Source: Cenococcum geophilum 1.58
Lineage: Eukaryota; Ascomycota; Dothideomycetes; Gloniales; Gloniaceae
Direction of reading: 5' to 3'
Assembly: GCA_001692895.1 (NCBI GenBank)
Contig: KV748261.1
Span: 248,001 to 312,000, forward strand
DNA length: 64,000 bases
In this document: piece by piece, positions 1,118 to 57,421 of the stretch
Numbering within the stretch: position 1 is the first letter of the stretch
How the letters are laid out: each line of letters opens with the position of its first letter
The notes under the pieces: generated by a model
Databases searched by the model: none
What the model was told of the DNA's origin: nothing
Seen by the model: the letters and a program-made list of their open reading frames with translations, nothing else
Position numbers and translations under genes: made by a program

Positions 1118-1249
1118 CCTTATATCTAGTATCTAAAACTATAGGGAAGTAATTATTAGCTATAACAAACTAATAGAGCTAGTAGAATGGCTCCGCCAGT
1201 CTAGCGAACCTTAGGCGCCCCTTTAGCAAACCCTTAATTAAACCCTCTA

Positions 1250-2260
1250 GGCCGTCGAAAACGGACTCTGCACCTGTACGTGGTGACGGCTACGAACCTG
1301 GGTCTTCGAAGTTCAGACCCAGAGCCAACGCAGAGACGTTGCACAGCGCGTGCAAGTAGGACCTGGTGGTTGTATGCGTCGTGGGGCGTAGTGAAAAGTT
1401 TTCANATGGGATGGTGAGATCTCGAAAACCACTACTGACGGTACCCCTTCACAATACAGCTACTAGTTCTCCTATTAAGCACCTGTGTAATCCAACGTGG
1501 ATAATGGCTCTCAAAAACATCCCCCGACCCCCAACAGAAAGCATCGACGACCTCACATCGACGAACGAGCGATCGCGAACGAACGAGCAACGAGCAAATA
1601 TACGGCCCCTCCTAACCCCCAGGGCGATCGCCCGCGGAGCATGCGGTCACTCGCCGTTATTTCTACCGAATACTACCTAGCAGCCTGGATTGCGACCCAC
1701 GGTTTTCCCTGTCTCCTTTCGACGGAGTGGTGACCCTTAGGAAGGGCCTAGCTGGGGCCTAGGTATAAAAGATACCCAAATACACAATATCCCGCTCGCT
1801 TATCAGTATTACGGTGGTTAGAATGGATGAATCCCCCTTACGCCTTCGATGGCCCTAGGGGGGGGGAGGCATGGCGTATATGGCAAAGGTCTACGAGAGA
1901 TAGCATATAGGGGATGGTTAAGATACGGAACACAAAGTATACAGCAATCGATTGGCAAGGCCTAGCTAGGGCGTAGTGAACCCTAGCTTTGGATAAGCTA
2001 GAGAAGGAAGCAGTGGTTCCCAAGGAGTTCGAACACCTAAGGAGGACAGGACGTAGCTGTAGGCCCGCAGGGCCGCTGCTACGGACGGACATGGCAAATC
2101 AGGGGTTTTTTATCCTACTGAGGTGGCTCAGAGGGTTTTTCCGTCCCCTACATTAATAAGGGTTTTCTTCTTGTCAACTTATAAGTTTCCCTTGTGTATA
2201 GAGTAGTCTGCGTGGGCCTAGATAGGATCCGTATCAGACGTTAATTAAAGATCTTACTAC
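1250..2260 (+). mobile_element. Composite retroelement with LINE-like 3' tail
   Basis: A 1.0-kb insertion in LINE copy A, flanked by a 15-bp direct repeat (TAATTAAACCCTCTA at 1235-1249 and 2261-2275). Its last 95 bp or so (from about 2158) resemble the LINE 3' end: they share GGGTTTTCTT, then an AGTAGTCYGCGTRGGCCTA-like run, then CAGACGTTAA. The rest is unrelated to the LINE, is clearly richer in G+C, and keeps many CpA and TpG steps, so it was barely touched by RIP. An inverted repeat CTGGGTCT/AGACCCAG lies near 1298-1323. No convincing protein is encoded; the short open frames have no recognisable domain. One base (1405) is ambiguous. Confidence 0.7.
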
Positions 2261-4483
2261 TAATTAAACCCTCTAACGGCTAAGCAAAATTAAAAATAAA
2301 TAAAACTCCTTTTATAGGCAAACCGTACCTAGGCCGCCGTAGCTACGCTCTTTAAGTATAGGGAACCTACCCCCCTTAAGATAATAATCGGGTATATAAT
2401 TATAATATAGCTAAATATAGAAAAAAATAGAGGGACTTAGGGGATAATTAGAAATAAAAGTTTCTATAGAGATTTGTAAAGAGGTCTATAATACTATTAT
2501 AGTCCAATATCTTAGGAGTAGAGATATTAGAGTTACTCTAAAGGACTAATAGATAAAGGAGTAAGCCGTAAGGGTAGAGGATAGGCTAGGAGAATATATT
2601 AGTATAAAAGTACTCTATAAAGATTACCTAGTTAAAGTCCTAGTGGCTCCTATAAGCCTTAGAGTAGAAAAGGGACGCTAAGCAGACAATGTAGTAACTA
2701 TATAAAATATAGTAAAATAAATAGAACGCCTTATATTAGGACTTAAGATTACCTAGCTTTAATAGCTTTAATAGAAAAAATATAAACTAAGTATATAATA
2801 AGAATAATAAGAGGATATAAGGGTTACTAGAAACTTACTAGGGAGACGCTAAATAAATATATAGCTCCCTTATTATTAGCGTATATATACTAGAAATATA
2901 AAAACTTCTTATCTAAAAAGGAGTAGTTATAGATAGCCTTATATATAATATAAGGTTCTATAACTATAGACTACGCCTAAAATAATGCTATTGCTATATA
3001 TAATAAGGATATACCTAATCCATATACGTAGTATAGGTGTGCTATAGCTACTATTTAAGCCCTTATAATATAAGACACTATATAAATTAAGACTAAATAA
3101 AATATATAAACTATTGCTAAAGCATATATAAGCGTAGAAGAGAGAAAACTATATTAAATATAGGACATAAAAGGCAAAGGCTTAATAGCTACGGTAATAA
3201 CTATACGCTAGGTTATATAAATAGAAACAATAGGCGATAAGCTATGGGGACGTAGGTACCTTCTTAGCGTTTCCTACCTTTAATACTAGGGGGCTAAGCT
3301 AGCTATCCTAAGCCTTAATAGGCTAGAAGCGACGCTGTATAATATTACTAGACTAAATAGGGATATAATAGTTATTATAGGATATAAGGGAGAGGACGCC
3401 CTATAGACAGCTATAGTAAGCTTAAGGCTAGGATAATTAAGAATTAGACTAAATATAGTAAATATAATATATATAGCTAGCCTGTAAGGGGTATATAGTT
3501 AACTAGTAAAAATAGGGGAAGAACTAAAGATAATAATAGATTTAAAAATAGAAGGGCTAGTAGGAATATAAGATATAGAAATAAAAAGCTTTATATAAAA
3601 TAAATAGTAGCTAGGGAGTAGATATAAGAGATAGAGGTTTTAAATATTTTAGAGAAAGTAGAAATAGTAGATGTAAGGAATAAAGAAGAGGCGAAAGACC
3701 CTTACTAAGAGTCCGCCACTTATCTATTATATAATATAACTACAGTAATATAAACCGCCGTCTTATAAGGCCCTTACTAGACAGTTTAGACCTAAAGAAA
3801 TACTATATAAGAGCTGTATTATAATACCTATATATAATTAATATACTGCCCCTTAGGGCTCTAGCTCCTATATAAACTAAAAGCAGCTATATATATATGC
3901 TTTATAATTAGCAAGGCTATTAGCCTAGCCTTATAGTCTTAGTAGGTAGTTAACCTAGGTATTATAGTTATTATAATCTAGATATATAGGGGACCTATAT
4001 AAATTATTAATATATATAACCCTAGGGTTATAGGGGTACTATAAACAGAGAATATTATATTAGTAATAAGCTTGTTAGAAACTAAAGATATAGAGTTTAT
4101 TCTATTAAAAGATATAAACCTTTACCTATAGTAGAAGGGCATCTATATTGCTGCTAAATATTAGGTAGAGTATTTACTAAAAGCTATAAATATCCAGGGC
4201 CTTAAGCTAGTTACCCCCCTAGGAGCAATTATATGGCAATAAGGCATCGCTAAAAGTATAATTAATCTTATATTTATAGACGAAGGCCTATACTAAAGAC
4301 TTGAAAGGTGTACCCCTAAAGAAGAATAGGCATATGCTTTAGACTATATCCCTATTTAGATATAGCTAAACCTAGATATTAAGGTATAACTAAATAGTAA
4401 AAAATACGTAATAAGGAAGCTTAAAATAGACAGTTTCCTTAATATAGTTAAATAATAACTCTAAGACTTAGAATAAATCTACC

Positions 4484-4751
4484 TGTTTATACTAACTTAA
4501 TAGCATAAGTGAGTTGTATCCACGGGCACGAAATACATGTAGTATTATATGCTTGTTTAGATGGTAACTGTCGATTATATAAAGCAGACTACGTGGTCTA
4601 TATACTAATGCACCTCCCCCCTAATTAGTTAGTGCTTTATAAGTGCACCAGACGCGTAAGTAAGTGGTTAGTGCACTGAACGCGTAAACGCGTACCTAGT
4701 GTACCGAACGCGTAAGTACGCGTTTGGTACAACAGGTGCTGTAATTATATA
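4484..4751 (-). repeat. Copia LTR (left copy)
   Basis: A 268-bp terminal repeat matching 10579-10846. It contains a run of short GCGTAA-containing direct repeats in its right half. It is preceded by target duplication CTACC. Confidence 0.85.
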
Positions 4752-7700
4752 CTAGCAGTACTTGAAAAATAAAACCACCTATATATAGCCTCTGTAATTG
4801 CTTTAATAAAACCATAGAATATAAAGGAAAATACATAGGAAATCTCCCCAAGGTGCCGTCTAGGCTGCCTTCTAAACGGTGCCTTAAGCTAGTTGTAAGT
4901 TCTGCTTACAGTCCGTAAAATGAACTGTACGGCCTTTTAATAAGCAGTAGACGAGCCATAAGTTAGATTTTAAGGGCCGCTAAGGCGCTAGTGCTAAGCG
5001 AACTAATGGCGATTTTCTATCCCGGGGATAGAAAATCGTAATTGGTTAATTTAACCACCCTGTAAAATTCGGTAGGTTACATAAGTCCACCAAGTTCCAC
5101 CGTAGCTTTTTACCATTTTCTACCTATACTATATAACGAGCCGTACGGCCTTCTAACGGGCCGTAGATATACTATAGGTGCTCCGTTAGTCCCGTTCTAC
5201 CTATTCTATAACTTTTAGGTTAAGCTTATTTGTGTTAATTAGGGTTTTAAGGGCTTGACACGGCTTTACCTTAGTTATAGCGTCCGCTGGGTTATCTCCG
5301 CTGCTAATTTATTTAACCTCCGTAATCTTACGTTGTTTGTAGGCCTAATATAAGCACATTAGGTTAACCATGAGCCTCTTCTCTTATGTTATACCTAGTT
5401 TAACTAGGTAGTTGTAAAGGGACTTTAAATCGGTGTATAAAACCAAGGGTAACTGCTCTAGTTATAGAATCTTCTGGACCATTAATTTAATTGTAGCTGC
5501 TATATTAAATTTATAAGCTAGTGTATATAGTTTAGAAGCTAGTACACTACGGGTTACTTATTTACACTTAATTGAAGACTAGTATAGTATATTTGCGTCT
5601 TAATTGCGGTCCGTAAGTACAATTATAAAGCCAATTTGTGATAATAGGTCTTTGTTATTAGCAAAGGAGGCGTCCGTAAATGCTAGTAGGCTAAGGGAAT
5701 TTAGGTCTAGTGGTATAAAAGTAAGTCCCCTTGCTACATTGTTAATTTGCCACTAAATGCGCTTATTAAGCTACTTAACATTTTCTTCTTGCGGATCTAC
5801 TGCCTGGGCCGCAAAGGATAAGTTATAGGTAGATTTAGGTTGGCAGACTGTAGCAATGTAGGCGCCTCTTGTACGCTGTGCAGCGTATTGGTCCTTTATA
5901 TTTATGGTCTTACGGGTCTCTTCGCGGGAACTAGTAAGGTCCGTAGGCTTTGCTGTAACGAGCTTTAGGTTTTAAGCTTGGCGTTTCTGAGTTAGCTTAA
6001 TTAGGTTGCCCTTTTGTGTAATTAGGCCTCTATTAAACTTAATCGGATTCTGCTTAGTTAACTACTTTTACGGCTTTGCTAAGAACTTGGCCTTTTATAG
6101 TTTAGTTTCTTTAGCGTCCATAAAGGTCTGGTCTACTAGGAATAGGGTATTATTTATTTAAAGTCTAATAATACTAAGGCCGTTTAATGGGCTGTATAGG
6201 AGGTAGGGGTTATAGGTCAACTGTTTTATTTTAAGCTTACTAACGTAATGCTAGTAGTATATTTTAAACTAGTAGTTCCTAGCTTCTAGTACTCCGTAAA
6301 GAGGTTTTATAACCTATAAAATTGTTCCTGGTTATAGGTTAAGCTCATAGGGTGGTTATATAAAGATGTCCCTACTTAGGTAGGTATTAGACTGCATATA
6401 GGCTTGCGAGATGTCCCGTAAGTATAGGGCTACGGGTTTAGTTTGCTATAGTCCCGGCGCAAGTGCAAGTATAATTCGTTAGCTAACTTGTTAAATTATA
6501 GGCGATTATATAAGGACTAAGTCCTTTCCCTTATTATTATAAGCTTATACAATAAGCCTTAATTTCTTAAAGGCTTTGTTAGTACTAGGGTGCTTAATCT
6601 TGTTAACGAAGCGTAAGTTAAATATACGGACGCCTTGCGGGATGTCTTTCTCTATTATAACTGTAAAGACACCCTTTTTAAGTAGTCCGTTAATCTTTTT
6701 ACGTCGTGAGTCCGTAAACGGGGTTTCCTGTACTAGAACTGATATATCCGTAGGCGGAGATTGCCTTGCGGATATTCCTACGGAGGTTAGGTGATTTTCT
6801 ATTACGGTGTTCTTGGTTATAGGGTGCTTTTAGGGGCGTCCTTGACTACGCTTTACGGTAGGTTTAGTAGGTTTAGTGGGTTTTTAGGGGACTTCTGGGG
6901 TAGGCAAGGGTGCTTCTAGTTTATTTGATTTGGTGGGTGCTTTTAGTTTGTCTAGTTTAACGGGTGCTTCTAGTTTGTCTGGTTTAACGTCATGGGTGTT
7001 TTTAGGCCGAAAGTAGGGTTTTACGGACGTGCTTCTGAAGCTGGTTAGCCCACTAGGAAGCTATACGCAGCACGTCTCGTTTTTTACGGCTAGTAGACGA
7101 TAAGGTCTATTCTAACTGCCGCTTTTACGCTATATAAGGACTTTAGAGTTAAGCGGGAGGTCGTGTACTAGGGTCGTGTTAGGTCCGTTGCGGTAGTATA
7201 GGGCGTTATTAATAGCTTGCTTGGCCCGTAGCTTAACTATTTTAGTTATTGCCTTCTGTATTGCAGCTGCTCGTTTTATAATAGACGGGGTAGAAGGGCC
7301 TAGGTTGCTTATTCTTAGGTAGGCTCCGTAAACTAAGAGGGTAGGTACTAGTCCGTTGGGGCTAGCGGTGTCGTTAATAGCTTTTACGGCCATCTATAAA
7401 GCCAGTTCCTTTTAGATGTCCTTATACTTGTCCGTAATGATCTAGTAAGCTCTTTGTAAGGCTAGGTAAGCTCGCTTAATAAGCCTAATAGACTAGTGCG
7501 CCTTAACTGGAATAGCTTTTGTTAATATAGCCATGGCCGTAGTATACTGCTGGAATTCCTTACTAATAAAGTTCCTACTGGCGTTGTGGGTGATATACTG
7601 CGGAGGTCTGACGTATGTGTCGATCTAGTAGGTCCGTAAAATATCCTAAGTGTGTTTTATAGATATATTTTGCAACTAACGGGCGGCTTAATAGTGGGTT

Positions 7701-10578
7701 ACCTCGTCGATTATATGTAATACTAGACTGCCGTTAATGTATATAATGTCTACGTATACTAAGTGGTTAAAGTTAAGGTCCTTATAAAGGGTGAACTTAA
7801 ATTGGCCTAGGGAACGTCCGTATTTCTGGTAGAAGGAGCAGTATTTAGTTAGGTGGTTAATTGCCTTTCTGTTAACGTTGTTATGTCTAGAGCGTTTAAG
7901 GACTTTATATAGCTTTTCGGCTGACGGGTGGCCGAAACGGCGGTATAGGCGGTGGATCTCCGTACTGGTAAGGTAGTATAGGTTATAGTCGAAAGATTCC
8001 TGAATGTAGGTCTGTAAAGTCTCTCCCTATATAAGGAACGGGTGTCTAAATCGTCGTGTAATTGGTAGGGTAATATGCTTGCTTCCTAGGGCAGTTATAG
8101 GGCTAATTAGGGTGTCCGTAACATTATTATAGTATATTTATAACCTGTCCATGTCTATAAGATAGAGTAGGAAGGGGGTGTCCGCTTTTACTACGTGGAA
8201 GTTAACTAGGCTAATTAGAGTCTTAACTTTAACTGATCTAATTAATGCGGTTAAGCCGATGCCGAATTGGACATTTACAGCCCTAGTTTACATAATATTA
8301 ATGTCCGTATTATCATTTGTGGTGGTCCTATATGCGAGGTATTATCTATAGCCTGTGGTAGACTTCTTAGAGGTACTTATGTCGATTATAATACCGTAGA
8401 ATTTCTTGGGGGTATAGCGTTTTATAGTGATATATGCAAATAGGTCCTGCTTATAATCTATAATATCCGTAATAGGGGTACTTATGGAATGGTTTTTGGG
8501 CGTAACTAAGTGTATAAAGGAACGGTTGGCTAATATGGTCGTAATATTAAAGGCTTAGCTGTCCGTAAAAGGTCTGAAAGTGGTTAAAAATGTCTTTAAG
8601 GTCTCTTGTTCCTAAGCGTCTGAGTTAAAGTTAATTATAAGGGCTTTTATTAACTTATTAGGGGGCTTTTCTACTTCCTTTCCTTTGTATTCTAAAATAA
8701 ACTAGTTAATACGGCTATTAAGTCTCTTTCTAGACTTATTACGTTCTTTCTAGGTATGCCTTATAGACCAACATTCTTCCTTACCATATACAAAGCACTT
8801 CTGGCTGGTTTATCTGCGGGGGTATATTTTTGTACGGGGGTTGTTATAGGGGTTACGGGTGGGACTTAGTTGGTATAGGTGCTGCTGGCGGTAGCGGTGG
8901 TCCGTAAAGTAGACGTCTAAGTCTATTTATGGATATTAAATATCCGTAATAAAGGCTTAAGTGCTGCCTGGTGGGTTTAAGACTTTATACGTTATAATAG
9001 AGGAGCGTAGGTCATTAATAAGGCTAGCTAAGGTATCTATAGGCTTATAGTAGGCGTACTTATAGGGCTCTACTTCCTGGTAGGCTGTAATAAGTTTATT
9101 GTGCAGGAAGTTATCTGTTTGAAGCTTGGTGTTAAGGCCGTGCTATAGGTGCTAAAGGTCTTTAATGAGAATTTATAGGCACTCTATAGTTGATTTTTCA
9201 GTGTTCTTATTAATTACGGTCCGTAGCTTGGTTATATTCCATTAAGTAAGAATATTACGCTTATATTCCGGTCCTTTAAAGTAGTTACGCGTAGCTTTGT
9301 ATAGCTTATTAAAGGGAACACTAAGGGGGTTACTCTTAAGGTTAGTGTAGTAGTGGTTAAGTGCTAGGCCGCGCAGCATAGTGGAGTAGGCTTGGCTAAA
9401 TTCCTGTTTAGGAATATTAGCCTTCTAATAGAGGTCCGTAAAGATAGTAAGTTTAAAGTTAAAGTTATTGTTTTTACTGCTATACTTGGATTCGTTGGTA
9501 TAGAGCTTAGCTAGGTTAGCTAGCTCCTTACCGTAGGTCTTTACTTAGGTAGGTTGCGGATTTGTAACTTATAGATCTGTAGCTTGTGGATATATAGCTT
9601 GCGGATCTATGACTTAAATAACGGGGGTAATTTGGTCCGTATTTTGGTTTATAGGGGTATTATAGTCCGTAATTTGGGTTACGGGGGTATTGTGGTCCGT
9701 AACTTGAGTATTAGGTGTACTTTGGCTAGTAAGATTAATTCTAATGCCACTTAGGTTTGTGGAACGAATTTGGTTAAATGGGTTAGCTATAAGGCTAGAG
9801 ATTCTGTTAAGTTTAAAGGAGGCAAAGAGGTTGCTAGTTTTAATGTGATTTAAGATTTACTCTTTAGTCTATTCCGTTTGGTCCTCTTTACGTAGTGTAT
9901 TGTATAGAGACCGTATAACAGTGACTTATTTATCCCTTTTAACCTATACGCCTTAGTAACGTAAAAGGGTTCGTAGGTTATGGATAGTAGTAGGGTTATA
10001 AGCCTTAAAAATAGCTTCCGTAAAGTCTATAAAGTCTTCCTTGTATTGCTTCTATAGGTCGTTATTTATAAGCTTAAAGTGTCTGTATTTAAGGATTTTA
10101 AAGCTAATGTAGTTGTTAACGTTGTTTGTAGACGTAACGTCGACGCCTTATCTCTACTTCTTTTGACCTTTGCTAACTTACTTGCTAATATCTGCTATAT
10201 TATAGTGTAGTGTGGTACGTAGCGGGTGGTAGCAGCTTATAACGGGTGGGGGAGGTCTTATAACGGTCCGTAAAATCGATTAATAGGTCTATAATGGTTT
10301 ATAGGAGGGTAGGGGGTTTCCGTAAAAGGTCTGAAGAGGTTTAAGGTTTAAGGGGGTTAAGGATAGGGGTTCCGTATAGGTCTATATTTGCGTCTATAAC
10401 TTCTAGTAAACCATACTAAGACTTAAATAAGTATATAGAGTTGGAGATAAGTCCGTAATCCCCGACTTTTAACCTTTTAGTAGGTCGTACTAGGAGTCTA
10501 AATAGGTAGTTGCTGTCGTGTGTATTGCTTGGGGGGAGGTGTTAAGTAATTGCTGATCTGTGCGCGCTTACTAATTAG

Positions 10579-10846
10579 TGTTTGTACTAACTTAATAGTA
10601 TAAGTGAGTTGTATCCACGGGTACGAAATACATATAGTATCGTATGCTTATTTAGATGGTGACTGTCAATTATATGAAGTAGACTACGTGGTCTATATAC
10701 TGATGCACCTCCCCCCTAATTAGTTAGTGCTTTATAAGTGTACCAGACGCGTAAGCGAGTGGTTGGTGCACTGAACGCGTAAACGCGTACCTGGTGTACC
10801 GAACGCGTAAGCACGCGTTTGGTACAATAGGTGCTGTAATTATACA
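10579..10846 (-). repeat. Copia LTR (right copy)
   Basis: A 268-bp terminal repeat matching 4484-4751 apart from a few transitions. It is followed directly by CTACC, the second copy of the 5-bp target duplication. Confidence 0.85.
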
Positions 10847-13317
10847 CTACCTAATACTAACTAAGTGAGGCTTACTAGCTACCCCTAAGAAAATTAATTA
10901 AAGACTAGAAAAAATCTAAGTAGTAATTAAAAGTAGGCTAAATGAGCACTGCGTAATCTTAAAACTAGGCCCCTATACGCGATATATATAGTTTTTATTA
11001 CTAGCTAATAATAAGTAAGAAGTAAATATATAGGTAGCTATAATCTTAAAAGTAAGAGATAATATAAAGATATAAGAAACAAGTTAAAGAATATCCTAAA
11101 AAAGACGTAAGAAATAACTGGAGATAGTTTATAAATAAGTATACTTTTAACCTAAGCCTCTCCTATAATAAGGGCCTTTGGGCTATAGTAAAATAGATAA
11201 AGAAAAAGGTAAGACGCTTAGTAAAAGAGTTATACTTACCGCCCCTATAAAGAGTAAGGGAATTATAAGCCACTAATAATAATAAGGTTTTTCCCCCAAC
11301 TAGCTCTAGTAAACCTTAGTAACATTATAGGTAAAATACTAGTAACTTATCTGTAGGCTAACAGCGATATAATAATAGAAGAAATAGCCAGAACTATTAG
11401 CCGCCTTTTAAATAATATAGTACTAGGACTAGATAGGATTCTAAATAAGGCTTTAAAGACCTATAGACTATTTATATTACCTTAGCTTGCAGATATAGCT
11501 AGAGTATACTTTATAATAGGCTACTACCCGCAACTTAGAAGATCTATAATAACGGTTATTTAATAAAAAGAAGGTAAAGTAGACTACTTAATCCTAAGAA
11601 GCTACTGCCCTATTACTTTAGAAAACGCCCTTAGCAAGATCTTAGAAAAGGTAAGAGCGGGCTATATAGTAGATACGGCTAAGAAATATACCTTACTACT
11701 ATAAAGCTAAATAGGGGCAAGAAAGAACCGCTTAATATTATTAGTACTTCTGTTACTTACTACTATTATTAAATCTACATAAGCTATATAAAGGGACTTT
11801 ATAGTATTAATACTTAGCCTAAATATTAGCGGCGCCTATAATAATATACCCTATAAGTGCCTCCTATATATCCTTAGGGTAAAGGGCTTCCTAGAATAGT
11901 TTATATAATTTATTTAAGGGGTTATAAATTAGAAGGAAATATTACTAGTCTTTAGCAGATACTAAAGCGCTCTTATTATAGTTATAATAGGAATACTATA
12001 AGGATTACCTTTTCCGCCTATACTCTTTCTTTTCTTTATAAGAAATTTACTTAATACCTTTAAAAAAGGGGCGACTTAGGGGATAGGCTTTATTAATAAT
12101 ACAAACCTAATTATATATAGGCTAATAGCTATAAAGAATTACAGAATACTAGAGAAAGCCTATAATATCTATATAAAATAAGCAAGACAATATAGAGTCT
12201 AATTCTTACTAAATAAATACTAGCTAATCCATTTTATAAGAAAACGCAACTAATCTATAGATCTTTAGTATATAATTTATATTTAAGGCTTTAAGGGTTA
12301 ACCAGTTTAAGGCCTAAGGGTATTAAAAGTATAGGTAGATAGTAAGCTCTAGTAGAGCCTATAAAGGCTAAGTATAGTATATCGCAATATCTAGGATAAT
12401 TAATTCTATATAGGGTCTATACTTCTAGAGGTTACGGCTACTATATATAGTAGTTACCTAGCCAACTATAATATATAGATCCAGTATTTGGGCCATTAAA
12501 GAAACTAAAAAAGGCCCCCTTAAATTACTTCTTAAACTACTTTAAAAGGTCTAAATAGTATGCCTCTAGAGTATAATAGACGGGTATAAGTAAACGGCTA
12601 TAGTACTGCTTAAAAAGGATGCTAATACTCCCCCTATAACTATATATTAAAGCCGCTATAATATAAAGGGTATAAAAGAAACGCAACTCTAATATTATAA
12701 AGTATATTAAGATACGCTTAAATAAACTATAAAGGAACTCTAGGGTACCCTATAGGAAAATAAGCCAATAACCCTAAAGTAGGGGAAATATATTAGAAAA
12801 ATAGGTAGAGATAGTAGAAGAAAAATAGTACTATATTAGGGCCTAGGCCTATATAAAAGAGAAAGGGATAGGCGTAAGAGGCTAGTAAAGATAATAGTAA
12901 GAGAGAGAAAGGAGCTAAAGTAGAGTATAAAAAAATACTAGAAAACTATCTACTGTAATATAATACTGATTAGACTAACACTAAAAAGTTAAATAGTAGT
13001 TAAAGATATAGAGACTAACTTAGGCAAAAGGAACTTAAGCTATAGTATAGTTAATACGATTAGGGGTAAATACTTAAGGGCTCTAAGAAGGCCTAATAAA
13101 GGTAAAAAATATAATAGTAATACTCTTAGGGACAGGAATAATAGGACTAAAAGATTAGCTTTACTAGGTAGGTATTTTAGTAGATAGCCTAAGGTACGAA
13201 TATAGCTAGCTAAGATAGATACTAAAACACGTAATGCTGCTATGCCCCTTATACACTAACTAAGAAATAATACTTTTAGTAGCTAATATAGAGAACTATA
13301 ATATACTACTCTTAATA

Positions 13318-16300
13318 ATAATAATTTATTGCTTAACGTCCGATTTAGATCCCTATTGGGCCTACGCGGACTACTCCTTATATATATATATAGGGAGAAA
13401 ACTCTATTTAAGAAAACCCTGTAATTTATCTTCCCGCCTTTTAGGACTCGCCTATAGGGCGCCTATAAGGCTCCTGCGAGTTACCTATAATGCTCCTACT
13501 ACCTTACTTTTTAACCTCCTTAGAAACCACTGCTGCCGTAATAAGCCTATAGACGCGCTAGTATTGTAAACTTTACTTTACTACTATAGAGTCATTAGGG
13601 GGCACCCATTACTTACCCCCCTGCCTTTTATTACTATTTCCTTTATAACCCGGAACTAGTTTAGTATATTTTAGCTAATAAGCTACTAGGTAACCGCCTT
13701 AAGGCCTTTTTATATTAAGAGCAGTATCTTATAGTTCTCTATACTAGCTACTAAGAGTATTACTTCTTAGTTAGTATGTAAGGGGCATAGCAGTATTATA
13801 TACTTTAGTATCTATCTTAGCTAGCTATATTTGCATCTTAGGCTACCTACTAGGACACCTACCTAGTAGAGCTAATCTTTTAGTCCTATTACTCCTATTC
13901 TTAAGAGTGTTACTATTATATTTTCTACCTTTATTAGGCCTTCTTAGAGCCCTAGAGTGTTTACCCCCTATAGCATTAACTATGCTACGGCTTAGGTTCT
14001 TCTTGCCTTAGTTAACCTCTATACCTTTAACTCCTATATACCTCTCTAGCATTGGTCTAGCTAGTATTATATTATAGTAGTTAGTTTCCTGGCGTTCTTT
14101 TATACTTTACTTTAGCTCTTTTCTCTCTCTTACTATTATCCTTACTGGCTTCTTACGCGTCTCCCTTTCTCCTTTATATAGGCCTGGGCCCTAAAGCAGC
14201 ACTATTCTTCTTCTGCTTTCTTTACCTGTTTCTCTAATATATCTTCCCTACTTTAGGGTTATTAGTTTGTTCTCCTATAAGGCGCCCTAGGGTCCCTCTA
14301 TAGTTTATTTAGGCGTGTCTTAATATANTTTATAANATTANAGTTNNNTTNNTTTTNCGCCCTTTATATTANAGNGGCTTTAATATATAGTTATAGGGGG
14401 GGAATATTAGCTTCCTTCTTAAGCAGTGCTGTAGCCGTTCGCTTATATCCGCCTATTATACTCTAAAGGTAGGCTGTTTAGACCTTTTAGAGTAGTTTAA
14501 GGAGCGATTTAAGGGGGCCTTTTTTAGATTCTCTAATAGCCTAAATACTGGACCTATACGTTATGGTTAGCCGGATAACTGCTATATATAGTAGGCGTGA
14601 CCTTTAGAAGTATAAGCCCCATATAGAATTAACAATCCTAGATAATGCGATATACTATACTTAGCCCTTATAGGCCGCTTAGGCCGCATATACGCTCTAC
14701 CGGAGCTTACTGTCTACCTATACTCCTAATACTCTTAGGCCCTAAACTAGCTAACCCCTAAAGCCTTAGATATAAATTATATGCTAAAGATCTATAGATT
14801 AGTTACATTTTCTTATAAAGTGGATTAGCTAGTACTTCTCCAGTAAGAATTAGACTCTATATTGTCTTGCCTATTCTATATAGGTGTTATAAGCTTTCTC
14901 TAGCGTTCTGCAATTTTCTGCGGCTATTGGCCCGTATATAATTAGGTTTATATTATTAATAAAGCCTATCCCCTAGGTCGCCCCTTCCTTAAAGGAGTTA
15001 AGTAGGTTACTTATAAAGAAAAGGAAAAGTATAGGCGAGAGGGGTAATCCTTATAGTATTCCTGTTGCAACTATAATAGGGGGGCTTTAGTATCCGCTAA
15101 AGACTAGTAATATTTCTTTTTAGCCTATAAACCCTTAAATAAATTATATAATCCATTTTAGGAAGCCTTTTACTCTAAAAATATATAGGAGACGCTTATA
15201 GGGTATATTATTATAGGCGCCATTAATATCTAGGCTAAGTATTAATACTATAAAGTCCCTTCGCATCACCTATGCTAATTTAATAGTAGTAGCGAGTAGC
15301 GTAAGTGCTAATAGTGTTAAGCGGTTCTTTCTTACCCCTATTTAGCTTTATAGTAGTAGGGCGTATTCCTCTGCTATATCTACTATATAGTCCGCTATTA
15401 CCCTTTTTAAGATCTTACTAAGGGTATTCTCTAGGGTAATAGGGCTCCCTAGAAATAAGTAGTCTGCTTTACCTTCTTTATATAAAATAAACGTTGTTAT
15501 AGCTCTTCTAAGTCTTGGGTAGTAGCCTATTATAAAGTATACTCTAGCTATATCCGTAAGCTAAGGTACTATTAATAGTCCGCAGGTCTTTAGGGCTTTA
15601 TTTAGAATCCCATCTAGTCCTAGTGCTATATTATTTAAAAGGCGGCTAATAGTTCTGGCTATTTCTTTGGTTGTTATATCACTATTAACCCTTAGGTAAG
15701 TTACCAGTGCTTTACCGTAATATTACTAAGGTCTACTAAAGCTAGTTAGGGGAAAAATCTTTCTATAAGGATTTTTGCCTTCTTCTTATTATCGCTTGTA
15801 GCTAGTAATTTACCTAGTCTTTGTAGGGGCGGGAGGTATAGGTCTTTTACTAAATATCCTACCTTTCTTTTTACCTATTTTATTATCCTCTAAAGACCTT
15901 TATTATAGGGGAGGCTTAGGTTAGTAGTATACTTATTTATAAACCGTCTTTAGCTATTCCTTACTTCTTTTTTTAGGGTATTCTTTAGCTGGTTTCTTGT
16001 GTCTTTGTAATATCTCTTATCTTTAGGATTATAGCTGCTTATGTATTTTCTTCTTACTTATTATTAGCTAGTAATAAGAACTGCGCATTATGCGGACTAT
16101 ACGTGTTATGCGTAGGGGCCCGCTTTTAAAACTGGGCAGTATTCTTTTAACCTATTTTTAATTACTGCCTGGATTCTTTCTAGTCTTTAGTTAATTTCCT
16201 TAGGGGTAGCCACTAAGCCTCGCTTATTTGGTATTAGGTAGATTTCTTTTAGGTCTTAAAGTTATTATTTAACTATATTAAGGAAGCTATCTATCTTAAG

Positions 16301-18862
16301 CTTTTTCATTGCGTATCTTTTGCTATTTAATTATGCCTTAATATCTAGATCTAGCTATATTTAGATAGGGATATAGTCTAAAGCGAGTGCCTATTTTTCT
16401 TTAGGGTTATACCTTTTAAGTCTCTAGTATAGGCCTTCGTCTATAAATATAAGGTCAATTATGCTTCTAGCGGTGCCTCATTGCCATATAATTACTCCTA
16501 GGGGGGTAGCTAGCTTAAGGCCCTAGGTGTTTATAGCTTTTAGTAGGTACTTTACCTGTCGTTCGGCAGCAATATAGATACCCCCCTACCGCGGGTAGTG
16601 GAGGTTTATATCTCCTAATAGGATAAACTCTATATCTTTGGTTTCTAGTAAGCTTATTACCGATATAATATTTTCTATTTATAGGACCCCTTTAACCCTA
16701 GGGTTATATATATTAATAATCTAAACCGGTCCCCTATATATCTGGATTATTATAACTATAATATCTAGGTTAATTGCCTGCTATAACTATAAGGATAGGC
16801 TAATAGCCTTACTGATTATAAAGTACACGCGTATAACTGCTTTTGGTTTATATAGGAGCTGGAATCCTTAGGGGCAGTATATTAATTATATATAGGCATT
16901 ATAATACGGCTCTTATATAGTAAGGATATAGTATTTCTCTAGGTCTAAGCTGTCTAGCAAGGGCCTTGCAAGACGGTGGTTTATATTGCCGTAGTTATAT
17001 TATATAATAGATAGGTGGCGGACCCCTAGCGGGGGTCCTTCGCCTCTCCTTTATTCCTCGCTTTCTCTATTTCCACTTTCTTTACGATATTTAGAGCTTC
17101 TATCTCTTATATCTGTATCCTGGTTACTACTTATTTTATATAAAGCTTTCTATTCCCGTATCTTATATTCCTAGTAGCGCTTTTATATCTAAATCTGTTA
17201 TTATCTCCAGTTCCTCCCCTATTCTTGCTAGTTAGCTATATACCCTTTAAGAGTTGGCTGTAAATATTATGTTTGCCGCGTTAAGTCTAATTCTTAATTA
17301 TCCTGGTCTTAAGCTTGCTATAGCTATCTATAATAGTCTTTCTATAGGGCGTCCTCTCCCTTGTGTCCTCTATAACCCTTATATCTCTATATAGTCTGGT
17401 AATATTACGCGGCGACGCTTTTAGCCCATTAAGGCTTAGGATAGCTAGCCTAGCCCCCCGGTGTTAAAGGTAGGAAATGCTAAAAAGGCACCTATGCCCC
17501 CCTAGCTTATCGCCTATTGTTTCTATTTATATAATCTAGCGTACAGTTATTCCCGCAGCTGTTAAGCCCTTACCTTCCGTCTCCTATATTTAATATAGTC
17601 TCCTCTCTCCTACGCCTTATATATGCTTTAGTGGCAGTTTACACATTTTATTTAGTCTTAATTTAAGTAGTTTCTTGTATTATATGGGCCTATATAGTGG
17701 CCGTAGCATACCTATACTACGCATATAGATTAGGTGTGTCCCTATTATACATAGCGGTAGTATTATTTTAGGCGGAGTTTATAGTTATAGAGCCTTGCGT
17801 TATATATAAGGCCATTTATAATAATACCTTTTTAAATAAGGAGTTTTTGTATTCCTAGTATATATGTGCTAATAATAAGGAAGCCATGCGTTTAACCAGC
17901 GTCTCCCTAATAAGTCTCTAGTAACCCTTATATTCTTTTATTGTTCTTATTATATACTTAGTTTGCATTTTCCTATTAAAGCTATTAGATTTAGGTAATC
18001 TTAAGTCCTAGTATAAGGCGTTCTGTTTGTTTTACTATCTTATATATAGTTACCGTATTATCCGCCTGGCGTCCCTTTTCTACCCTAAGGCTTAAGGAAA
18101 CCGCTAGAACTTTAACTGGATAATCTTTACAAAGCACTTTTATACCAATACGTTCTCCTAGCCTATCCCCTACCCTTATAGCTCGTTCCTTTACCTATTA
18201 GTCTCTTAGGGTAACTTTAATATCTCCGCTTTTAAGGTATTAGATTATAACGGCGTTATAGACCTCCTTATAAATTTCTATAAGGACTTCTGTTTCTAAT
18301 TATCCCCTAAGCCCCTCTACTTTCTCTATATTTGGTTATATTATAATTATATATTTAGATGTTATCTTTAGGGGGGTAGGCTCCCTATACTATAGAGGCG
18401 CAGCTACAGCGGCCTAGGTACGGTTTGCCGGTAAAAAGGGGTTTTATTTATTTTTAATTTTGCTTAGCTATTAGAGGATTTAGTTAAGGGTTTACTAAAG
18501 GGGCGCCTAAGGTACGCTAGATTGGCGGAGCCATTCTACTAGCTATATTAGTTTGTTATAGCTAACAGTCGCTCCCCTATAACTATAAATACTAAACGCG
18601 TCTAATAGGCTTTATATTTTATTAGATGCCTTCTTAATAGAGGTCTTTCTGCTTTATAGTGTAGTATTCGCCCGTTCTTATTGTGGAGGGCTATTACTAG
18701 GCGTGGTTCTGGTGGGCGCGCGCGAGTGCGAACTACCGTCGTTTGACGTATGCCTCCCCTGCGATGCATGCATTTTAGGGGGATTCTCTGGGTATTTTTC
18801 AGGGTTCTTGTGGTTGTTTTTGGTCTTTTTAGGCCGGGTGCAGCAAGAGCTCCAATCCCTAC
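13318..18862 (-). mobile_element. Tad1-like LINE, copy B, full length, antisense within copy A
   Basis: A 5.5-kb element reading right to left. Its 5' end is near 18855 (AGCTCTTGCTGCACCCGGCC on the minus strand) and its 3' end near 13320 (TTGCTTAACGTCCGATTT on the plus strand). It is flanked by an exact 14-bp duplication, TACTACTCTTAATA, at 13304-13317 and 18863-18876, which places it inside copy A. Both termini match copy C, so it is full length, though its reading frames are destroyed by RIP-type stops. Ambiguous bases cluster at about 14328-14375. Confidence 0.82.
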
Positions 18863-19248
18863 TACTACTCTTAATATAAAAAGGCCTTAAGGTAGTTACT
18901 AAGTGGCTTATTAGCTAAAATATGCTAGACTAATTCTACGTTATAAAGGAAATAGTAATAAAAGGCAAAAGGACGAGTAATAGGCGCCCCCTAATGACTC
19001 TATAGTGGTAAAGTAAAGTTTATAATACTAGCGCGTCAGTAGGCTTATTACGGCAGTAGTAGTTCTTAAGGAGGTTAAAAAGTAAGGTAGTAGAGCACTA
19101 TAGGTAACTTATAGGCACTAAGTAGACGAGTTCTAAAAGGCGGAGAGATGGATTATAGGGTTTCCTTAAATGGAGTTTTCTCCCTATATATATATAATGA
19201 GTAGGCCGCGTAGGCCTAATAGGGATTCAAATCGGACGTTAAGCAATA
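18863..19248 (+). mobile_element. 3' end of LINE copy A, beyond the copy B insertion
   Basis: This segment resumes the copy A sequence after the 14-bp duplication and runs to the family 3' terminus. It aligns with the last 370 bp or so of copies C (56890-57260) and D (22215-22600), including the TAATAGGGATYCAAATCRGA-like terminus. Confidence 0.75.
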
Positions 19249-20521
19249 AATAACAATAGTTTTAACTAAATTATAGGTAGTTCAAGGCGTAAGAGAAGAT
19301 AAATTATAGGTTTTTTTTTTCTTAAATAAAAAGGAAGGAGTTTAGAAATTTAATTAAGCGGTAAGAATTATTAATAAGAATTTATTAAAAACTATACTAA
19401 GTAGGGTTAATTAGAGAGAAGAGTAAGTTAGTAGTAAATATATATCCTAGGTACTTTAATACCAAAGTACTTTGAGATATGCTATCGTATAGTTATATTA
19501 GAAAATACTATATTATATATACTGCTAGGATATAGGCTAAATAAGGCGATTTAGTAGAGGTCGTTTATCTAATAGGCCCGAATCTACTACAGCAACTTAT
19601 TCCTTTCCTATTTTTTTAAAGCTATAAAATATACTAATTTAAAAGGTTAGTAAGTAGTTTAGATAACGGGGAATATTATTCTTAATAAAGTCTTATTATT
19701 ACTTAGATATTATAATCGCTCTAATCTTATTAAATAAAACGAATATGTCTACCTTTTTTAGTATTGGTTTTAGTATCTCTTTAACCCGTTGCTTTTATCA
19801 TTATATTATTAATAAAGATCTAGCCAATAAGAAGCTCTCGCCTAAACCTTTATAATAAGAACTACCAGTAATAGCAATAATTAGTTTATTAGTTATAATT
19901 ATATTATATTATATAGAAATATAACTAACTTAATTATAATCGCACCTAATAATTATGTTACATAAATAGAACTCTATAATTAACTGTAGAAATAGCGGAA
20001 ATAAAAAAAAGGAGAGGTAGAGCTTTAGGAGGGGCTTTAGGTAAGCTCTGGGGCAAGTATATTATCTATTATTATTATTAATTCTATTTATTGCCCGATT
20101 TGGTCCCTTTTTAGGTCTATATAAGCTACTACCTTTCTATATAGGAAAAAGCTCTATAGGGGGAAAAACCGAAGTATTTCCTTTTAGCTAGTCCTATGCG
20201 CTCCGCCTTCGCCTAGTTAGTATATCTTTATATCTTTCAGTCTGCCTTACGTACTATACTTTCTAGGTATATTAAAAGCTCTTTAGGGGGGGTAAAAGGG
20301 TTTAGCAATTCGCTAGTATGCTATATATGGCTAGGCGGGGAGTCCTTAAGGGGCTGGAAAGGGGCGTATTCTTTAGGGTCCTCCTATTAGATCTTAAGTA
20401 TATTATCTATATATAATAACTTACGTATATATAAAATTACGTAGAGGTCCGTGCCTAAAAGACGTGATTAATATAACTATATAACCAAATTATAATTACT
20501 TTCTTTAATTATATAACATTC
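19249..20521. repeat. AT-rich RIP-affected debris
   Basis: No gene is visible. The sequence is AT-rich with stops in all frames. Around 20090-20200 the plus strand reads somewhat like the inverted 3' end of a LINE (TTGCCCGATTTGGTCCCT, then a GGAAAAAGCTCTATAGGGG-like stretch), comparable to the inverted 3' end near 57430. This may be a third LINE-type remnant. The right end, TTAATTATATAACATT, is the left target duplication of the next element. Confidence 0.4.
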
Positions 20522-20612
20522 CTAAGGCCACCGCGAAGAACTTGTTAAGGCCCTGCCTAGAGAACTCGTTAAGGCCCCTCTATAAGGGCCTATCTGGTAT
20601 CCAGTACAATTA

Positions 20613-20924
20613 GGTGACTTAGAAGAGGGTCTTAATAGGCGTGGTGCGCGCGACCTGGGGGATGGCGACGCGATGGCGCTGTAACGGCAACGCGATGGCG
20701 ACCAGACGGCCTAACGAGGTGGAAACACGGGCAAAGCTCTAGGCAGGGAAATACAGGCCAGCTTCGACGGCCCCATGGCGTTCAACTCACAGTCGACTTA
20801 CAGGCGACTTACAGGAGGGTCTTAATAGGCGTGGTGTACGCAACCTAATGTGTATATACATAAGGCGACTCACAGGAGGATTTTAATAGGCGTGGTGCAC
20901 GTAACCCGATGTATATATATAAGG
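20613..20924 (+). repeat. Repeat units of about 61 bp in the composite element
   Basis: Units start near 20613, 20803 and 20864. Each begins GGYGACT, continues to a shared TCTTAATAGGCGTGGTG-like core, and the last two end in alternating TA-rich sequence. The last two are adjacent (61-bp period). The first is separated by about 140 bp of GC-rich sequence. Confidence 0.6.
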
Positions 20925-21130
20925 GAGGCTATAAGGGAAACACAGGCTAGTTAGATAAGAACTTAATAGTTAGAGATACAGGCCAGCTTATAAAAGGGGG
21001 GGACACAAGCTTAGTTAGTAGGAGAGGGGAGAGTAGGTCGTCCGGTATAGGACCTAGTATCTCTATAGCCCCTCTCCTGTAAGACACAGTCGGCCTATTA
21101 TAGGGAGACCCTTATAGGCAACGCGAAATG

Positions 21131-21180
21131 GGAGCTAGTAGTGTATAGGGTGTTACGCCCCTATATTACTACTAGCCTCC
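21131..21180 (+). repeat. Long stem-loop in the composite element
   Basis: The left arm (21131-21150) pairs with the right arm (21158-21180) with one bulge of about 2 nt and few mismatches, around a 7-nt loop. It is either a structured RNA element or the remains of an inverted repeat. Confidence 0.55.
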
Positions 21181-22611
21181 TATAAGGCGTAGTGCGTAAT
21201 AGCTACTGCTGGCTTTAGGGACCTTACCCCTTAGCTAGGCTCTAACCCCTAGTGCACCTAGTATATAGGTAGGATTACGTCCTAGCTGGAGAAGATTACT
21301 ACGTGGCTTAAGAGAACGGATGCGCGTATTAGTATATTAACAGACGGAACCGTTCGCCTTTAGGGCGGCTTGCCAGTAAGATATACTTAAGGAGTAAACA
21401 GGAGTTACTTAGGTAGGGGAGGCTTTTTTAGTCTAGGCCTTAACTGCAGAAGGTACCTAAGGCTTCTATATTACAGGATGCAGCTACGACGCCCTTATAA
21501 GATTACGCCAGTAGGCATATAAGAAGGGAGTTACAACCCCTAAAAACGGTAGCTTATGCCTATACCGGCGGAAATAATAAAGAAAGGCGTAAAACCAGAG
21601 GCTATAGAAGGCTCCTAAGCCGTATAAAAGCGTACTAACTCTAGGAGGAGACTCTTATATAGACCGCTAGGGGGCGGTCTAGTACTTAAGCTAATCCCAT
21701 TATAAGATACCTAAAAGAATAGTGAAATTCCCCGTTAATTGGTGGTGGCAGCTAACTACTTATAGAAAGCCCCAGGCCCTTAGGCTTAGTAAGGGAAAGC
21801 TACTTAAAAACTAAGGTAGAGGCCTAAATAAGTAGGCATATTAAACTCTACTATATAACTACCTATACTAGCTAGACCAACGCTAGAGAGGTATATAGGA
21901 GTTAAAGGTATAGAGGTTAACTAAGGTAAGAAGAACCTAAGCCGTAGCATAGTTAACGCTATAGGGGGTAAACACTCTAGGGCTTTGAGAAGGCCTAATA
22001 AAGGCGGAAAATATAATAGCAACACTCTTAAGAACAGGAGTAATAGGACTAAAAGACTGGCTCTACTAAGTGGGTGTCCTAGTAGATAGCCCGAGATGTA
22101 AATATAGCTAGCTAAAACAGACACTAAAGCACGTAATACTACTATACCCCTTACGTACTAACTAAAAAGCAATACTTTTAGTAGCTGGCATAGAGAACTA
22201 TAAGACATTGCTCTTAATATAAAAGGCCTTAAGGCGGTTACCTAGTAGCTTATTAGCTAAAATGTACTAAACTAGTTCTGGGTTATAAAGGAAATAATAA
22301 TAGAAGGCAGGGGGGTAAGTAACGGGTGCCCCCTAATAACTCTATAGCAGTAGAGTAAAGTTTACGATACTAGCGCGTCCGTAGGCTTAGTACGGCAGCA
22401 GTAGTTTCTAAAGAGGTCAAAAAGTAAGGTAGCAAGAGCACTATAGGTAACTCGTAGGCGCCTTATAGGCGCCTCGTAGGCGAGTCCCAAAAGGCGGGGA
22501 GATAGATTACGGGGTTTTCTTAAATAGAGTTTTCTCCCTATATATATATAAGGAGTAGTCCGCGTAGGCCCAATAGGGATCCAAATCGGACGTTAAGCAA
22601 TGGATTATTAT

Positions 22612-24170
22612 ATTAATTATATAACATTTGGAATTATAGAGCCGATTATAATTATATAGTTATTGCTATTATTAGGAACTATAACAACCTAAAGTTATTT
22701 AAATTGCTGATTTCGCCTTCTTAATAGGAAAAACCATATATTTAGTGTTTTTTTTTACAAGATTAATATTATTAGAGAATATTCGTGATATTTTAGATAT
22801 ATAATTTTGCTAATAAAGTCGCAGTGTTTATATAAGGGATATTATTGCTATTACCTTAGGTTGCACTTAGGACAAACTCTAGGCCCATAGTAAGACTAGC
22901 TACTTAACTAGCTACTAGATTAATAGTAGGCTATATAATAAGAGATATAGAAGTTATAGATTATGCTAGGGCGCTATAGGCCATTCTTATAAAGCTTATA
23001 GTTTAGTTTATAGAGTTTCTAGCTTTATATTACTTAGCTTATACCTTAATTTAATAAAGGCCTTAGTTAATAGCTAGATAGTAGTCCGCAAGTACCTTTA
23101 ACGTCTATATAGTAGTAAAAACTAGTAGTATAGCGCGCTATAGGTCCAGAGTAATCTTATTAAAGAGGTCTAGCATTAGGTCTTTATAGGGAATTTAGGC
23201 TTAGCTAGCTAAGTATAAAAAGTGGGTTTAAAAGGCTGGGAAGGTCTCCGTTATTTTATATTTAGGCTTTTATAATTAAGGCGTGCATTTTATATCTTAA
23301 AAGGTTCCTTATAAATAGAAGATAAGTAGTTAATTATTATTTTTTCTAAAATAAAAGGGTTTACTAAGTCTATGGTATATCGCGAACGTAGGTGCGTTTA
23401 GGCGTCTCTACTAGTACAGCTAAAGATATAGACCTTCTTAGCTTGGTTATTAGGGAAGTAATCTTTATTAACCTTAGGCTTATTTTATAGTTAAAGCTTC
23501 TAATTATTAAATATAGGGTTAGTCCTATTTATAAGTAATAGGGGGTCTGTAACCTTCGCGGATTTTAATAATATAGTACGTTAGGCTAGGGCCTTAAGGA
23601 CTATAGCAAGTCTATTTAATAGGTTATCTTAAAATATAGGAGTATTTCTAGTTCTAAGCAGCTTCTATAGCCGTTTAATTTTAGTATTAGCTACTATAAG
23701 CTCTACTTAGGAGGTTAAAATATTAATTATTTCTTTATCTAAGGTATTTGCAGGCCCTATAGCTGCTTTACCTACTACTATATTTTCTAGTATCGTAGTA
23801 AGGGTGTTAGGTAAATCTAGGTAATTTCTTTAGGGGTTCTAATCTATGCGTATCTTATAGGTCCTTTAAGGTTTTATTTTTTCCCTTTAGGTCCTGTCCT
23901 TATAGTCCTAATAATATCCTTAGGGTCCTATTCTATGTCCTTATCCTATTTATAGTCTTATAGATATTCCCAAGTTCCTTTTTAGGAAGAAAGAGTAGTA
24001 TAAGCTTTAGATAATATTAGTAACTTAGTTAATTAAGGCATAAGTACGGCAAGAGGGACGCGTAAGTCTATATAATTGGATTGTCTATAAACAAGGATCT
24101 AAAGCTAGAGAAAGGAAAGGAGAAGAAGAATAGCGCTACTAGATGTTTTATAAGATCTTCATGTCGCGTA
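22612..24170. repeat. AT-rich RIP-affected remnant, possible LTR-element piece
   Basis: Heavily mutated, with no open frame. The start near 22855 resembles minus-strand sequence near 1100, suggesting a shared repeat family. The last part (24010-24170) has a different, less AT-rich texture with short repeats of GTTCTGCCA near 24180-24220. No gene is seen. Confidence 0.35.
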
Positions 24171-57260: not shown

Positions 57261-57421
57261 TTATTATTATTATATATGCCTACTATTAATATAATACCTA
57301 TTATGTAAACATCTAGGCTTAACCTAAAACCTATTATAACTAAAGAGGCTTCTATATTTAAAACCTATAAGGTACTAAATAATATCTTTCTTTATTAAAT
57401 AAATCTATAATATACTAATAA

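Follow-up and report, generated by a model that had tools for sequence, protein, structure and literature searches.

How did a noncoding, GC-rich sequence and the 3' end of a long interspersed nuclear element (LINE) come to lie within one target-site duplication in the genome of Cenococcum geophilum 1.58? The locus was analysed in a window of 64,000 nucleotides (contig KV748261.1, positions 248,001 to 312,000; window coordinates are used throughout), in which the 16-bp sequence TTAATTATATAACATT occurs just twice, starting at 20505 and 22613, as an exact duplication around both parts. Since the body and the LINE part are inside one exact duplication, both arrived by a single insertion, and the feature is very probably a chimeric retrocopy made by template switching. 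A first-pass annotation of the window, made from the sequence alone, had described this duplication and placed the element at 20505-22627; its start stands, while the right copy of the duplication ends one base further, at 22628.

The composition of the body agreed with that annotation, which had called it GC-richer; its GC content was 0.469, compared with 0.28-0.32 in the flanking kilobases. The three repeats of the 61-bp type and the strong stem-loop reported in it were also located (Table 1). The fold of 21125-21190 reached -32.5 kcal/mol, while its shuffled versions averaged -16.95 (z -5.05) and none of 200 was as good; no special fold was found at the first of the 61-bp-type repeats (20600-20660; z 0.34). 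The LINE part, 21866-22612, is 88-91% identical to other LINE copies in the window and belongs to a family, here LINE A, that we take to be Tad1-like.

The body had been called unique, a description that did not survive comparison with the genome (177 Mb in 162 contigs), where it has several hundred copies by a rough count, 40 candidates having been scored per search. Used as a query, it found 514 first-look candidates, of which 40 were scored and yielded 49 matches, and its first and last 400 bases gave 434 and 445 first-look candidates, respectively. A 23-nt pattern of its 3' end, allowing up to one mismatch, occurred 148 times, and the reversed control 0 times. Most copies extend ~480 bp further 5' than the window copy; a 304-bp piece of this additional 5' part gave 380 first-look candidates, and a full 1833-bp copy gave 530. 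The complete unit, Body1, is thus ~1.83 kb long with sharp 5' and 3' ends. Among the 29 distinct loci in the set L001-L030 (L014 overlaps L004), the 5' start base was identical in 26 and reads GCCCGCGAAGCCC in the least changed copies; later starts were seen in the window copy, L002, and L016. The bodies of the window (20521), L002, and the inner body of L024 start within a few bases of one internal position and have different LINE partners; this common truncation may mark a pause site or a second RNA start.

Body1 is noncoding, since 55 stop codons (17, 24, and 14 in the three sense frames) are invariant in 10 aligned copies, in agreement with the annotation, which had found no protein in the body. 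Rfam yielded no match at E<=1 for 20400-22700 of the window or at E<=5 for five loci with full Body1, and an exact core pattern had 0 occurrences in IMG/VR. The TA/AT ratio was ~2 to 2.4 in the 29 body copies measured, as after repeat-induced point mutation (RIP), and two-state columns in the 10 aligned copies comprised 554 transitions and 28 transversions. Telomerase RNA was considered for the telomere-like CCCTAACCC in some body copies and was dropped for want of an Rfam match. The last 100 nt folded with z -1.8, -3.4, and -2.1 in three copies and 0.2 in the window copy; a stable 3'-end fold was rejected. Of the 41 consensus pairs, only 2 showed variation in both partners. The 3'-terminal sequence of the body (of the ATATATAACTACCTG type) recurs inside its 5' part (alignment A1, ~columns 273-287), and a subfamily with a duplicated tail holds a further copy of it.

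To which sequences the body is joined was read at 116 junctions, 69 from body-search hits reaching the 3' end and 47 from the pattern list. Body and partner are joined directly and in the same orientation. For L001-L030, all retrieved with the body as sole query, similarity to the whole element breaks off at body position 1344-1346, where a LINE or another body takes over, except where the LINE breakpoint is close by and the match runs past the body end. At its 3' end the body has ...CCTG, or forms of it changed from C to T or from G to A, and one subfamily has the duplicated tail before it.

Partners in the 69 junctions were LINE A (39), LINE B (4), family C (8), and another body (3), with 15 giving no nucleotide match. 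LINE B carries a Pfam reverse transcriptase match (2.2e-14), and family C (L020, L021, L025, L027, L029) shares with LINE A only its last ~72 nt. Six of the 15 unmatched partners match LINEs by translation, four are LINE E (one member with a Pfam RNase H match, 1.1e-5), and three are a repeat-bearing family F, whose last ~135 nt are common with LINE E. The partner of L038, for which Pfam and translated comparison gave nothing, is a candidate LINE read by eye, and that of L041 is the same as the partner of L101. In the pattern-derived 47, LINE A accounted for 16 partners, the body for 4, other references by nucleotide match for 19, and translation for 3, leaving 5 with none; in seven of the 19 the known partner starts 73-225 nt past the junction, and one (L086) begins with Body2, a second unit described below. 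Single cases comprised L101, which ends in a LINE-like tail and has an exact 15-bp duplication; L107 and L117, where LINE sequence is reached further on (the 2 kb read for L117 showed no duplication); L120, where Body2 follows the body; and L126, where an unclassified repeat with 837 first-look candidates follows. Families C and F (the latter L071, L076, L079) resemble LINE A and LINE E in the tail only, as SINE-like (short interspersed nuclear element) passengers would.

LINE A junctions from both sets numbered 55 and fell at 52 distinct positions, with 1414, 3248, and 4239 used twice each. The annotation had regarded different breakpoints in a search with the body alone as the sign of recurrent template switching, and this is the pattern obtained; it had taken a body standing alone at other loci as a point against a joint insertion, and no solo body was shown among the 116 junctions, one partner being unclassified. 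Its other counter-indication, an allele with the 16-bp repeat around the LINE part only, was not seen either. In all 14 complete chimeras tested, a duplication of 14-17 bp with 0-1 mismatch surrounds the whole (scores 11-16), including one body-body-LINE tandem (L004/L014). The 182 mispaired flank pairs used as a control had a mean score of 4.3 and a maximum of 12, with 3 reaching 10.

We explain these chimeras, with high confidence, by template switching that recurred during LINE reverse transcription and landed on the same RNA, a reading that supports the earlier suggestion of a repeated passenger RNA mobilised by LINE machinery. In the proposed course of events, which fits target-primed reverse transcription, the LINE enzyme would nick the target and start copying at the 3' end of an RNA that is a LINE or carries a LINE tail. 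Copying would break off at a variable place, in most cases directly after a donor-template C, and the enzyme would jump to the 3' end of a free Body1 RNA; this RNA was apparently without poly(A), since no A run is present at the junctions. Body1 RNA would then be copied toward its 5' end, which appears to have been reached in most copies examined. For the window copy, synthesis would have stopped ~480 nt before that end, followed by insertion with the 16-bp duplication, and repeated jumps would account for body-body and body-Body2 tandems.

The sequence at the breakpoint bears on whether body and LINE RNA were joined by trans-splicing or ligation before reverse transcription, the likeliest of the alternatives and nonetheless a very unlikely one. 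A body 3' end that stays fixed on many partner sites is what joining of a donor exon would produce. In the 38 distinct LINE A sites of the 69-junction set, AG stands directly upstream of the breakpoint in 3, against a 10% background; AG is therefore no commoner than expected, and splicing was rejected. At the same sites, position -2 of the LINE A reference is A in 25 cases and position -1 is T in 20. Partner sequence begins with C in 91 of 116 junctions, against a 20% share of C in partner sequence, and with CC in 57; this preference for C, together with the body-body tandems, fits copying better than ligation. The junction C may belong to the donor or partly to the RNA end, both assignments being compatible with the data. 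Annealing of the body end ACCTG to LINE bases upstream of the breakpoint was rejected as a guide, with 0 nt shared at 34 of the 38 sites and 1 nt at 4, as at random.

The body is always 5' of the LINE and in sense orientation, a position that would suit a LINE 5' untranslated region, with the chimeras derived from one long element by internal deletion. Four copies join near-complete LINE A, at about positions 1, 7, 17, and 21 (L118, L095, L067, and L037, respectively), which also fits. Nevertheless, four LINE A 5' ends (18853, 51749, and the neighbours of L002 and L005) begin at one LINE base and are body-free, the body joins several different LINE families and itself, and breakpoint reuse is rare, leaving this explanation very improbable.

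Subfamilies of the body provided a further view of donor choice. At 35 transversion columns, 29 bodies fell into five uniform or near-uniform groups. One group of ten is joined to LINE A at seven positions and to family C three times; a group of four to LINE A in two cases, one of them with a second body copy in between, and to family C in two; another group of four to LINE A three times and LINE B once; and the group of ten that includes the window copy to LINE A only. Since one body subfamily carries several donor families, one RNA type met different donors. Where a breakpoint is shared, bodies may differ, by 20 transversions in L005/L056 and by 7-15 in a LINE E trio, which suggests that some common breakpoints are hotspots; the comparisons for L028/L121 and L052/L098 are unreliable, their upstream stretches differing in structure. 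Spread of one original body-LINE chimera as an established non-autonomous family, which the annotation had tied to a single identical breakpoint, would suit L088 and L111, but it is refuted as the main process by the 52 LINE A positions; the differing bodies also speak against it, and we give it hardly any credence.

Several observations weigh against recurrent template switching as a full account. L088 and L111 share a breakpoint in another LINE and their bodies agree at transversions and indels, which suggests, from sequence comparison, a chimera mobilised a second time as a whole. The distribution of breakpoints along LINE A departs from uniformity (p 0.01), the 3' half receiving more of them; LINE parts have a median length of ~1.5 kb. 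The mispaired maximum of 12 overlaps the two weakest observed duplications (11 and 12), and the 47 junctions chosen by pattern carry the body 3' end by construction. Some body hits are without the Body1 3' end or have an internal gap. No source gene for the body and no intact or solo source copy was found, and neither a free Body RNA nor a transcript was seen, the evidence being DNA sequence throughout. A similar internal gap in the 3' third, followed by a short tail piece, is present in the inner body of L024, in G000:C14:828487-829496, and in G000:C14:2840345-2841858.

A second acceptor came to light at the L120 junction (G000:C59:309097), where the body is followed by a repeated sequence with 59 first-look candidates. 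Six copies of this unit, Body2 (L140-L145), were taken from the top of that list. Body2 is ~1.09 kb long; both its ends are sharp, the 5' end reading AAGGAACAC or AAAGGAA... and the 3' end ...TATATTCTRG, and stops are invariant in all sense frames of the six copies (11, 14, and 16). Its partners are LINE A at four different places and another LINE in two copies, one of which is joined through a Body2-Body2 tandem. Between the 3' half of Body2 and the middle of Body1, identity is ~59-72% (best E 6e-28), making the two homologous. Rfam searches of two Body2 loci gave only two sub-threshold hits, both outside the unit. When one fold was modelled for Body1 and Body2 together, both partners had changed in 18 of its 81 pairs (shuffles 14.1 +/- 1.6; 5/500 as high), and cells changed on both sides numbered 80 against 36.5 in shuffles (0/500 as high). 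Further pair types were not raised (58 against 60.1), and the comparison covers two clades with the structure taken from the same alignment, so that a common fold is suggestive only.

The layout resembles the MINE elements of Magnaporthe grisea, for which PMC2104539 gives 31 WEIRD-MGL MINEs, one WEIRD-SINE, and one tripartite chimera, with 28 different breakpoints, six shared pairs, and a motif GCC*A/U; WEIRD is expressed and was never found solo. Both systems have a noncoding 5' part of fixed extent that runs directly into the 3' part of a 5'-truncated LINE, at many different positions; a single duplication encloses the two, breakpoints are occasionally reused, tripartite cases occur, and no solo copy was found. 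The fixed 5' RNA part, variable LINE breakpoint, flanking repeats, and direct same-orientation join therefore place the element among MINE-type structures, as the annotation had proposed, with the window copy itself 5'-truncated. The systems differ in number (31 MINEs against several hundred copies here, a rough count) and in donors, which are MGL and Mg-SINE there and several LINE families and LINE-tailed elements here; body-body tandems and two homologous acceptor RNAs are found here. Most jumps here follow the copying of a C that is preceded by T or A, in contrast to GCC*A/U; assigning the shared C to the other side may bring the two into agreement. New compared with MINE are the scale, the several donor LINE families, the body-body double jumps, and Body2 fused to LINEs in the same way.

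The same paper describes mammalian chimeras of U6 small nuclear RNA (snRNA) and L1, in which the copy of a cellular RNA likewise precedes a truncated LINE part and shares one duplication with it; there the RNA is a short known snRNA joined to L1, whereas here it is long, has no Rfam match, and has several LINE families as donors. SINEs whose 3' tail is LINE-like, such as Mg-SINE (PMC2104539), are likewise non-autonomous and multiplied by LINE enzymes. Unlike them, the body lacks such a tail of its own in the junctions read and stands behind a donor element. No further similar fungal case besides MINE was found in a literature search that left most subscription journals outside its reach.

Switching of template by LINE enzymes is generally regarded as accidental. 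In this genome, a single RNA lineage and its homologue appear as acceptor in many separate insertions for which several LINE families were the donors, and Body1 stands at the head of ~1 in 8 LINE A 3' ends (a crude figure: 55/116 x ~430 copies over ~1550 first-look candidates). Body1 and Body2 could conceivably form one structured RNA family, a non-autonomous retroelement class without a LINE-like tail that multiplies as a landing template, its 3' end being one onto which the reverse transcriptases of several LINE families jump; we regard this as tentative and rather doubtful. If true, each new chimera carries a whole RNA copy at its 5' end, and copies could become sources. The junctions offer a large natural record of LINE reverse transcriptase jump sites, and the nature of WEIRD-like RNAs can now be compared between fungi.

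Table 1. Coordinates of the chimeric element and of the LINE A reference copies in the window.
Feature	Position	Strand	Remarks
Target-site duplication, left copy	20505-20520	.	exact, 16 bp
Target-site duplication, right copy	22613-22628	.	exact, 16 bp
Body1 fragment, 5'-truncated noncoding unit	20521-21865	+	~480 nt of ~1.83-kb unit missing 5'
57-61 bp repeat, three copies in window body	20612-20919	+	starts 20612, 20802, 20863
Strong stem-loop within window body	21128-21183	+	folding energy vs shuffles
Junction of Body1 3' end and LINE A position 4788	21865-21866	+	...CCTA; CCTG in less mutated copies
LINE A, 5'-truncated, last ~750 bp, short TTA-type tail	21866-22612	+	LINE A copies
Near-complete LINE A without body, used as reference	13313-18853	-	RVT_1 and Exo_endo_phos_2 (Pfam, pieces)
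Second near-complete LINE A without body	51749-57272	+	90% identical to first copy

The two near-complete LINE A copies of the window are ~5.5 kb long and were compared over 5548 aligned positions. Pieces of the minus-strand copy, translated with X at stops, matched the Pfam reverse transcriptase (1.6e-9) and endonuclease (3.9e-7). Nested elements occupy 1125-19251, where a third copy of the LINE A type lies in pieces (1125-1249, 2261-4485, 10847-13317, and 18863-19251), interrupted by this minus-strand copy and by a stretch between 271-bp direct repeats. These repeats, at 4484-4754 and 10579-10849, are 93% alike and resemble long terminal repeats.

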